This document shows, piece after piece, positions 5,616 to 14,723 of a stretch of 64,000 nucleotides of DNA. A model generated the notes under the pieces. The model searched no databases. It saw only the letters and a list, made by a program, of their open reading frames with translations, and was not told where the DNA came from. Source of the stretch: Naumannella halotolerans (lineage in GTDB: Bacteria > Actinomycetota > Actinomycetes > Propionibacteriales > Propionibacteriaceae); the NCBI RefSeq assembly GCF_004364645.1, contig NZ_SOAW01000001.1, forward strand, positions 310,001 to 374,000, read 5' to 3'. A program made the position numbers and the translations under genes. Numbering within the stretch: position 1 is the stretch's first letter; the number at the start of each line of letters is the position of its first letter.

Positions 5616-5802
5616 TCCTCCACCGTAACCGCGCCGCCAAAGCGGCTTGAGGTCTGGGGGGTGACATCCGTCCGCTCGCGACGACACCCGGTCGGCACGG
5701 TGTCGGCGGTCTCCGGGTCTGTGCGGGCATCGAGTCGAGGGCACTTGCGAATTCAGTGAACTGCGGACGCGTGGTGTCCGCAACCGCTGGTGTGATCTCG
5801 GC

Positions 5803-6170
5803 ATGATCGATCATCTCGGAATCGGCTGCACCGATCTCGGTGCGGCAGCGAACTTCTACGACCGGGTGCTCGGTGCGCTCGGTCATCGGCGGCTGAGGGA
5901 CTTCGGTGTGGCCATCGGCTACGGGCCGGCAGGCGGGCAAGCGCAGTTCTGGATCAGTGGTTCGACCACGTCGGGCAACGAGAGCCACCTCGCGTTCGCC
6001 GCGCAGGACTCCTCGCAGGTACGCGCATTCCATGACGCTGCGATTGCACTGGGGCCGAGGAACTCCACGCTCCGAGGCTCTGGCCGGAGTATCACGATCG
6101 CTACTTCGCCGCCTTCGTCCGCGACCCCGAGGGGAACAACGTGGAGGTCGTCACGCATCGGGGCGAATGA
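5803..6170 (+). pseudogene. VOC (glyoxalase-fold) family gene with a single-base frameshift
   Basis: The first 84 codons encode a typical vicinal-oxygen-chelate protein (MIDHLGIGCTDLGAAANFYD, GNESHLAFAA, VRAFHDAAIALG). From base 6057 the family C-terminus continues in another frame: EELHAPRLWPEYHDRYFAAF, then FVRDPEGNNVEVVTHRGE and stop TGA at 6168-6170. One extra G in the GGGG run at 6051-6054 would join the two parts into a normal protein of about 122 residues. As written, the original frame runs into nonsense to 6252 and loses the metal-ligand Glu of EGNNVEVV. It is either a decaying gene or a homopolymer base-call error. Confidence 0.85.
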
Positions 6171-11261: not shown

Positions 11262-12251
11262 TCACTGTGCCGGTACGGCCTCCTCCAGCTTCGGTACCAA
11301 CTGCTCCAGGGCGTACCGCTGCGAGACCGGTGTGCCGAGTGAGTAGGCCTGGGAAAGGTCGTCATCGAGGACGATCGCCCGGCCGTCCTCGACGGCGGGG
11401 ATGGCCTGCCAACTCGGGTCGTCGGTGATCTCGGTCGCCTCCACCCAGATCGGAAAGGCGACGATCACATCGGCGTCGAGCAGGTTGAGCTGCTCCTCGG
11501 ACACGTCGACACTGAAGCCGGTGTCGCTCGGCGGCAGCGCCTCTACCTGCGGGTTCTGCACGAACCCGAGCTTCTTCATGAAGGCCACCCGGCTGTCCTC
11601 CAGATAGGCTCCCCAGCCGTCGGCGGTACGGGCGACCGCGCTGACGGTCTTGCCCTCCCACTCCGGATGGGCGGCCGCGGCATCGGCGAACGCCTGCTCG
11701 GTCTCGGCCAGCATCCGCTCTCCGGCCTCGGCCTCACCCAGGGCGGTGGCGATCATGGTCACCTGCTGTTCGGCATCGGTCAGGTAGTTGTCACCACCCT
11801 CGGGTACGCCGATGGTGGGTGCGATTGAGGAGAGCCGGTCATAGCCTTCCTGATCACCGGAGCTGCGGACGTCCAAGATCAGATCCGGATCGAGTGCTGC
11901 CACGGCCTCGTAGGACAACTCCAAGGTGCCGAGGATCTCCGGTGGGGTGTCGTACAGTCCGGCCGACCAGGGGCCGACGCCCTCCCCGCCGAAGGACAAC
12001 CAGTCCGATGCCCCGACCGGCTGCACTCCCAGGTTGAGGGCGATCTCGGCATCACCCCAGCCCAGGGCGACCACTCGTTCGGGCTTGTCCTCGACGACCA
12101 CGTCGCCGAACTTCGTACCCACCGTGGCCGGGAATCCCGCAGCGACATCGCCGTCATCGCCACCGGTGTCGGTGTCACCTGAGGAGCAGCCGGTGAGAAG
12201 CATGGCTGCGGCAACGAGTGCCACCGAGGGCGTGGCAAGTCTGATCATCAT
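11262..12251 (-). CDS. Iron-siderophore ABC transporter substrate-binding lipoprotein
   Basis: Extracytoplasmic ferric-siderophore receptor of the FecB/FepB type. The 329 residues open with a lipoprotein signal peptide (ATPSVALVAAAMLLTGC, lipobox LTGC, Cys about 22) and a Ser/Gly/Asp linker. The binding domain has the family landmarks RVVALGWGDAEIALNLGVQPVGASDW, LDPDLILDVRSS, YDRLSSIAPTIGVPEG and LNLLDADVIVAFPIW. It diverges from the permease gene across an 81-bp gap with an IdeR/DtxR-like box. The rest of the transporter is broken, so this receptor may be orphaned or served by components elsewhere. Confidence 0.92.
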   Translation of the reverse strand: MMIRLATPSVALVAAAMLLTGCSSGDTDTGGDDGDVAAGFPATVGTKFGDVVVEDKPERVVALGWGDAEIALNLGVQPVGASDWLSFGGEGVGPWSAGLYDTPPEILGTLELSYEAVAALDPDLILDVRSSGDQEGYDRLSSIAPTIGVPEGGDNYLTDAEQQVTMIATALGEAEAGERMLAETEQAFADAAAAHPEWEGKTVSAVARTADGWGAYLEDSRVAFMKKLGFVQNPQVEALPPSDTGFSVDVSEEQLNLLDADVIVAFPIWVEATEITDDPSWQAIPAVEDGRAIVLDDDLSQAYSLGTPVSQRYALEQLVPKLEEAVPAQ

Positions 12252-12274: not shown

Positions 12275-12293
12275 CTGTGTGAGCCTAAACTAA
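12275..12293. promoter_or_regulatory. IdeR/DtxR-like iron box
   Basis: The minus-strand sequence TTAGTTTAGGCTCACACAG matches 14 of 19 positions of the DtxR/IdeR consensus TTAGGTTAGGCTAACCTAA. It lies between the divergent iron-transport genes, so iron-dependent repression of both is likely. Confidence 0.6.
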
Positions 12294-12332: not shown

Positions 12333-13316
12333 TTGATCTTGTTGGTGGTCAGTGTGGCGGCACTCGTCGTCGCCATCGGGCTCAGCCTGGCCATCGGGAC
12401 GCGTCCGGTCCCACCGCACGTGGTGCTGGACGTGATCCTGGGACGGCCGGTCGACCCGCAGGACTACCACGCGGTTGCGGTGCTGCGGTTCCCGCGGACG
12501 GTCGTCGGTCTGCTCGCCGGAATCGGGCTCGGAGTCGCCGGCGCGGTGATGCAGGCGTTGACCCGCAACCCGTTGGCCGATCCCGGTCTGCTGGGGGTCA
12601 CCGCCGGTGCCTCCTTCTTCGTGGCGATCGCGGTCTCGGCTCTCGGTGTCGGCTCACCGGCCGCCTACACCTCGTTCGCGCTCGCCGGTGCGCTGGTCGC
12701 CGCGGTCGCCGTGGCGCTGATCGGCGGCTCGCGGGGGAAGGGCATCGACCCGATCCGGCTGACCCTGGCCGGTGTCGCGCTGACAGCGGTCCTGACCGGC
12801 ACCGTCTCGGCGATCCGGGCGGCGGCCCCGCGTACCTTCAATGCGATGCTGACCTGGGAGATCGGGTCCCTGGTCAACCGCGGCTGGGATGTGATCATCC
12901 CGATCGGCCCGGTGATCTTGGTCGGTACGCTGCTCGCCTTCTTCATCTCCGGCCGGTTGAACACGATGGCCATGGGTGATGATCTTGCCACCACGCTCGG
13001 TACCTCGGTCGCCGGTACGCGGGTGCTGGCGGTACTTGCGGTGGCCGCCCTGGCCGGCGGAGCGACAGCCATCGCCGGCCCCATCTCCTTCGTCGGCCTG
13101 ATGGTGCCCCACATCGTGCGCAGGTTCTCCGGGGGCGACCAACGCTGGATCATCGGTATCAGCGTGCTGCTCTCCCCGGTGCTGCTGCTGTTGTCCGATG
13201 TGCTCGGCAGACTCGTGCTCTGGCCCGGTGAGATGGCCGTCGGCGTGGTCACCGCGTTCCTCGGTGCACCGTTGCTGATCGCGATCATCCGGCAGAAGAA
13301 GGTGATCGCACTGTGA
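12333..13316 (+). CDS. FecCD-family iron-siderophore permease (start region possibly shifted)
   Basis: Polytopic ABC permease for ferric siderophores. The 327 residues contain the family blocks LRFPRTVVGLLAGIGLGVAGAVMQ, LTRNPLADPGLLGVTAGASF, LTLAGVALTAVL, WEIGSLVNRGW and the ATPase-coupling loop GPISFVGLMVPHIVRRF, ending GEMAVGVVTAFLGAPLLIAII. The TTG at 12333 follows GAGG and could be a real start. However, a GTG at 12298 begins VPESTTPARGS in another frame, and adding one base near 12330 would join it and give a more normal N-terminus. The stop overlaps the next GTG start (GTGA). The second permease and the ATPase are not intact. Confidence 0.8.
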   Translation: MILLVVSVAALVVAIGLSLAIGTRPVPPHVVLDVILGRPVDPQDYHAVAVLRFPRTVVGLLAGIGLGVAGAVMQALTRNPLADPGLLGVTAGASFFVAIAVSALGVGSPAAYTSFALAGALVAAVAVALIGGSRGKGIDPIRLTLAGVALTAVLTGTVSAIRAAAPRTFNAMLTWEIGSLVNRGWDVIIPIGPVILVGTLLAFFISGRLNTMAMGDDLATTLGTSVAGTRVLAVLAVAALAGGATAIAGPISFVGLMVPHIVRRFSGGDQRWIIGISVLLSPVLLLLSDVLGRLVLWPGEMAVGVVTAFLGAPLLIAIIRQKKVIAL

Positions 13317-13697
13317 GCTCCACCGCCGATGCCACCACGCCCACCGGACGGCCGGTGGAGAGTCTGCGCGAACGGCAGCTGCGGCGTCGCCGACTCGTGC
13401 TGCTGGGGCTGGTCATCGCCACCGCGGCGTTGATGATCTTCGCGTTGAGTCTGGGCGATTATCCGATGCCGCTGCTCGACGTCCTGCGTGCCCTGACCGG
13501 TACGTCCGGTTTCGACTGCGATGAAGGCGGGGCAGAAGATCGCCGAGGGCACCCCCGAGGAGATCGTCACCGCCGAGAACGTCGAGCGGGTCTTCGGACT
13601 GCGGTGTGTGGTGATCCCCGACCCGCTGACGGGCAGCCCGATGGTCGTACCGCACAGTGCTGCCACGGGCGGAGAACAGCGGCCCGATCTGCGCTGA
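13313..13697 (+). pseudogene. Deletion fusion: N-terminus of second FecCD permease joined to C-terminus of FecE-type ATPase
   Basis: The reading frame from GTG 13313 encodes about 65 residues of a second siderophore permease (RRRLVLLGLVIATAALMIFA, LGDYPMPLLDVLRALTGTSG) and then loses homology. From about 13512, in the next frame, the sequence encodes the end of a siderophore ATPase: AMKAGQKIAEGTPEEIVTAE, then NVERVFGLRCVVIPDPLTGSPMVVPH, stop TGA 13695-13697. The missing part, most of a permease and all Walker/ABC motifs of the ATPase, should be roughly 1.5-1.9 kb (estimated from usual family lengths). The breakpoint lies within 13505-13520. The product cannot be a working transporter part. 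Confidence 0.9.
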
Positions 13698-13725
13698 GCG
13701 TTGGCGTCGCTTCTTCTGCAGCAAT

Positions 13726-13752
13726 GGCCCCCCGCAGGCACGTCAGGGGGCC
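13726..13752. terminator. Terminator hairpin between fec remnant and CDF gene
   Basis: GGCCCCC (13726-13732) pairs with GGGGGCC (13746-13752) over a 13-nt loop, between converging genes. Confidence 0.55.
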
Positions 13753-13778
13753 GTTCCTGCGGGAGAGATCGCGGAGGG

Positions 13779-14723
13779 TCAGGCGTGGCGGGCCTCGGTC
13801 GGCTCGCGTTCGCTGAGGTGCTGGGTCTCGATCTGGAACGTCGAATGGGTGATGGAGACCTCGAAGTGTTCGGCCACACAGCGCTGGATCGACTCCAGGA
13901 TCTCCGGGGCGTGGCCGTCGCCGAAGCAGCGTTCCTCCACCACCACATGTGCGGTGATGGTCGGCAGTCCGGTCGCGACGGTGGAGGCGTGCAGGTCGTG
14001 CACCCCCTTCACGTGCGGCAGCGCTTCGATGTGGCTGCGTACCTGTTCGAGGTCCAGGCCGGCGGGGGTGAACTCCATCAGCACGCCCAAGGTCTCCTTC
14101 ATGATCACCAAGGCCCGGGGAACGATCAGCACGGCGATGAAGAGGCCGGCCAGTGCGTCGGCGCGCATGAAGCCGGTGGTCCAGATGACGATCGCGGCGA
14201 TGATCACGCCGATCGAGCCGAGCGCGTCATTCAACACCTCGAGGAAGGCGGCGCGCATGTTGAAGTTGTCCTTGCGGCCCGAGGCCAGCACGGCGACGGC
14301 GACCAGATTGGCCAGCAGACCGATCACGCCGAAGATCAACAACTCCGATCCCGGTATCTCCGGTGGGGCGAACAATCGGCGGACACCCTCGATCGCGGTG
14401 TACAGGCCGACCACGATCAGCAGGGTCGCCTGACCGAGCGCGGCGATCACCTCGATCCGGCGGAAACCCCAGGTACGCTTCGCAGTCGGCGGGCGGAGCA
14501 TCATGGTGGCGGCGATCAGCGCGACCAACAGCCCACTGGCATCGGCCAGCGCATGGGCGGTGTCGGTGAGCAGCGCCAAGCTACCGGTGATCACTGCACC
14601 GACCGCCTGGGCGAGGACGATCGTCGCGGTCAGGCCGAAGGCGATCGCCAGCTTCCGGCGAGCCCCCGGGGTCCGTGCCTCGGCCGATCCATGATCATGC
14701 CCGTGCGAATGTCCGGCGCCCAT
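13779..14723 (-). CDS. Cation diffusion facilitator (CzcD-like Zn/Co/Cd exporter)
   Basis: Proton-coupled divalent metal exporter of the plasma membrane. The 314 residues begin with a His-rich tail (GAGHSHGHDHG) and contain six helices and a cytoplasmic ferredoxin-like C-domain (about 215-305: LEQVRSHIEALPHVKGVHDLHAST, THSTFQIE). The transport site in helix 2 is DTAHALADASG (HxxxD). In helix 5 the partner motif reads LEVLNDALGSIGV, with Glu where Zn exporters usually have His. The start overlaps the stop of the ArsR gene (ATGA), so regulator and exporter form one operon induced by metal. Confidence 0.92.
   Translation of the reverse strand: MGAGHSHGHDHGSAEARTPGARRKLAIAFGLTATIVLAQAVGAVITGSLALLTDTAHALADASGLLVALIAATMMLRPPTAKRTWGFRRIEVIAALGQATLLIVVGLYTAIEGVRRLFAPPEIPGSELLIFGVIGLLANLVAVAVLASGRKDNFNMRAAFLEVLNDALGSIGVIIAAIVIWTTGFMRADALAGLFIAVLIVPRALVIMKETLGVLMEFTPAGLDLEQVRSHIEALPHVKGVHDLHASTVATGLPTITAHVVVEERCFGDGHAPEILESIQRCVAEHFEVSITHSTFQIETQHLSEREPTEARHA

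Follow-up and report, generated by a model that had tools for sequence, protein, structure and literature searches.

Results

The window analysed here is a stretch of 64,000 nucleotides (C1:310001-374000) from the 3.47 Mb genome of Naumannella halotolerans, which is assembled in six contigs. Within it, an intact gene for a siderophore-binding lipoprotein of the FecB/Peripla_BP_2 type (11262..12251, minus strand; Pfam PF01497, E 2e-23; lipobox LTGC) supplies the binding-protein component of a FecBCDE importer. The lipoprotein is 54-67% identical to its homologues, the majority of which adjoin intact operons. Divergently oriented from this gene is an intact fecC permease gene (12333..13316, plus strand), encoding 327 amino acids from a TTG start and matching Pfam PF01032 with an E value of 1.3e-83 (profile positions 2-310 of 311). 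A cation-efflux gene converges on the locus from the opposite side.

Two FecCD permeases are expected in an importer of this type; here fecC is complete, and fecD is reduced to its first ~67 codons (13313..13514, plus strand), which align with FecD of L135, L025, L140, L143 and L146 before the coding frame breaks at 13516. The fecE gene is represented by its last 58 codons (13518..13697, plus strand), which were recognised by tblastn to the tails of intact FecE proteins and carry a coding signal across 13518-13646. This remnant holds no ATPase motif: as the initial annotation had noted, Walker A, signature and Walker B motifs are all missing from the locus, and no match to the ABC_tran domain (PF00005) was found there. 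A strong hairpin of 75 nt (z -3.1; 13705-13779) directly follows the fecE remnant. Its 40-nt core occurs in only three copies in the genome, with the other two (C2:588796 and C2:590735) lying ~1.9 kb apart in opposite orientation and flanking an oxygenase-like gene.

In the gap separating these two divergent genes, a DtxR/IdeR-type iron box, CTGTGTGAGCCTAAACTAA, is predicted at 12275..12293 on the minus strand; at 14 of 19 consensus matches the fit is good. This agrees with the earlier view that the two retained genes lie under a probable iron box. The site is the sole one with at least 14 matches in the 404 kb sampled from this genome, and candidate boxes were also seen at three further siderophore operons (L148, L149 and L161).

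Closer inspection of the junction shows the start of fecD joined to the end of fecE. The frame opening at GTG 13313, previously read as a FecCD permease N-terminus, reads ...IFALSLGDYPMPLLDVLRALTGTSGF and is indeed the N-terminal part of FecD, with 58% identity over 42 residues to FecD of a genome of the same family (L135). Opposite LGLGDYPLGPGEVLQALFGDSGFAS in L135 FecD the window has LSLGDYPMPLLDVLRALTGTSGF, after which the alignment is lost. The frame of ATG 13521 reads MKAGQKIAEGTPEEIVTAENVERVFGLRCVVIPDPLTGSPMVVP, the C-terminus of FecE, and this tail, beginning at 13518-13521 and lying one frame over as first described, is 68% identical over 47 residues to that of Paraoerskovia L025 (tblastn E 9e-17). 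FecE of the relatives carries HLIAMK.G at this point; the GCG codon at 13518-13520 fits the A of HLIAMK, and the window joins the alignment at the A before MKAG. Because the FecD alignment ends and the FecE alignment starts here, we place the breakpoint at ~13514-13518. Trained on the codon usage of the genome itself and given no homology input, a Viterbi frame finder independently ended one coding frame at 13516 and began another at 13518.

The fecD frame continues as nonsense to 13816, and the fecD and fecE parts are in different frames, so the 'fusion' of permease and ATPase proposed initially holds for the DNA and fails for the protein. We considered and rejected a functional chimeric gene, since no single frame spans both parts and the relatives, none of which shares the arrangement, carry separate full genes.

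To size the deletion, we took 78 operons, almost all of them from other genomes, and measured how far the 'MK' of FecE lies from the end of the FecD motif. The median was 1511 nt; operons with the best-aligned FecD starts gave 1484-1639 nt, and a few weakly aligned operons spread the range to 1241 and 1899 nt. In the window the same distance is 7 nt (13514..13520), and therefore ~1.5 kb is missing, comprising most of fecD and the greater part of fecE with all of its catalytic motifs. The flanks are thus homologous to those of the relatives, while the middle is present in them and absent here, as in a pseudogene formed by internal deletion. The comparison supports the internal deletion proposed at the outset and its prediction of 1.5-1.9 kb of extra sequence in relatives, these being ~50-65% identical and so not close. 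The undeleted ancestral form, as reconstructed from these relatives, would have been a complete operon. The orthologous operon was not found in the sole other genome of the genus, and for this reason the earlier proposal that the loss was recent is only weakly supported.

A search of the genome for another FecD and FecE, which had been suggested with the initial annotation, gave four more operons, two of them complete and two broken. Including the one in the window, the genome has five FecBCDE-type operons, of which two are intact and three are broken, each differently. The complete operons, L148 (C1:874-881 kb) and L161 (C1:2090.5-2098.5 kb), are frame-clean. In L147 (C1:1356.5-1362.5 kb), where the broken operon lies at C1:1357-1360 kb, three quarters of fecC is gone, leaving the last 76 codons adjoining a cyclophilin-type gene; fecD is intact, fecE is frameshifted beside Walker B and is followed by a siderophore-interacting-protein (SIP) domain, and no binding-protein gene was found within the locus. 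A 439-amino acid open reading on the minus strand at L147 1-1317 combines siderophore-interacting-protein and O-methyltransferase dimerisation domains, and may be two genes sharing one frame. In L149 (C1:2073.5-2080.5 kb), where the other broken operon lies at C1:2074-2078 kb, the binding-protein gene and fecD have one frameshift each. In fecE of this operon, ALAQETPIL is followed at once by VFGLRC; ~70 codons, Walker B and the part after it among them, are lost without a change of frame. Across the three operons there are six separate lesions of differing kinds.

The two damaged fecE genes also stand out among the 79 strong ABC ATPase domains of the genome, where the earliest profile stops (127 and 131) are those of L147 and L149 FecE, and 75 others all extend to profile position 132 or further. 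Outside the Fec operons, a gene for an FTR1/EfeU-type permease was located at C3:24.1-25.0 kb; searches of the genome for FeoB and for an NIS siderophore synthetase (PF04183) found neither.

We then compared the background of frame breaks in 404 kb of this genome, made up of the window and 17 further stretches of 20 kb each, with that in 936 kb around the operons of relatives. The frame finder used for this was calibrated on operons of this genome, two of them intact and two broken; it is blind to in-frame deletions. Broken ends numbered 11 per 500 coding segments in the 404 kb, one of them the 13516/13518 junction and several in transposase or phage genes, and 24 per 1205 segments in the relatives, at most two of which fell inside a Fec operon. 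The rates match, and we accordingly rejected a generally poor assembly or genome-wide decay. A VOC/glyoxalase-like gene at 5797-6152, also in the window, is divided over two frames, apparently by a frameshift, and likely frameshifted genes in other parts of the genome encode a sodium/solute symporter (L171 2752-4456), a rhodanese (L164 2038-2851) and a YafY-like regulator (L175 10074-11032).

By comparison, four frame breaks fall in 20 genes of the Fec operons (binomial p ~9e-4), and three of five operons are broken as against at most two of 94 in relatives (Fisher p ~6e-4); both tests were chosen post hoc, and genes that share an operon do not count as independent. Given that the overall rate of frame breaks matches that of relatives and that the breaks cluster in Fec operons, we take the decay to be real and focused on siderophore importers.

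An error of assembly, in which ~1.5 kb was collapsed or dropped and the operon of the strain is intact, had been raised as an alternative and is quite unlikely. The genome is a draft in six contigs, which leaves room for such an error, but the junction joins parts of different genes (the start of fecD and the tail of fecE), no repeat that could drive a collapse was seen, and the paralogous operons, ~40-59% identical in FecC, are too divergent to merge. The frame-break rate no higher than that of relatives, the estimated completeness of 100 and contamination of 0.48, and the breakage of two other siderophore operons by different lesions all argue in the same direction.

Discussion

The locus shares its content and order (a divergent binding protein, then fecC, fecD and fecE) and its predicted DtxR-type box with FecBCDE/FhuBCD-type importers of Actinobacteria, from which it differs in that fecD and fecE are mere remnants. 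Very probably, a single internal deletion of ~1.5 kb struck a FecB/FecCDE operon in a genome where redundant importers are decaying stepwise under relaxed selection. The ancestral state would have been a divergent FecB/FecCDE operon for a ferric-siderophore ABC importer under a DtxR-type iron box, and the deletion would have brought the final 58 codons of fecE, in another frame, up against codon ~67 of fecD.

Lacking FecD and an ATPase, the operon could most likely no longer support import, which would make fecB and fecC leftovers. ATPases are shared among importers in other systems, for example FhuC of Staphylococcus aureus, and one could imagine that the binding protein still works with a FecC homodimer and an ATPase borrowed from an intact operon, in the manner of one-permease importers. 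Both fecB and fecC are intact with their coding signal kept, and a one-permease operon belonging to the wider family (L163) occurs in the sister genome G001. This FecC nevertheless belongs to a two-permease type, almost every relative examined has FecD next to it, and fecE is broken in two further operons too, so residual function of this kind appears highly improbable.

Selection on the importers was presumably relaxed because two complete operons and the EfeU/FTR1-type permease remain, and stepwise decay through small and large deletions would have followed. The same survivors limit the earlier statement that a siderophore uptake system has been lost, which is borne out for this operon and does not extend to siderophore uptake as such. 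The loss might instead have been favoured, with importers shed serially for admitting siderophore-linked antibiotics or other harm. This competes solely with the relaxed-selection step, the deletion itself being real in both cases. Three independent breakages within one transporter class would fit it, but relaxed selection explains the same pattern, and we consider favoured loss unlikely; if true, the genome would record selection against a transporter class. The overall pattern looks like ordinary gene decay, unusually frequent in iron uptake.

Pseudogenised metallophore genes are already known. In staphylococci, an htsA remnant in Staphylococcus taiwanensis and truncated sfa loci are metallophore-system pseudogenes (PMC12709192), and the present locus is alike in that genes of uptake or synthesis are lost while their neighbours are kept. 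Among the 123 pseudogenes listed for Arthrobacter arilaitensis, 21 are putative transporters (PMC2991359). What is notable here, and sets this case apart from the staphylococcal ones, is that three of the five operons of one genome are affected.

On the best reading, there is no fusion protein and no new system at the locus, and the annotation is corrected accordingly: the locus holds no fusion gene and most likely no working importer. The genome offers a compact example of redundant siderophore importers lost repeatedly within one genome. It is relevant to the way in which the use of xenosiderophores becomes reduced.
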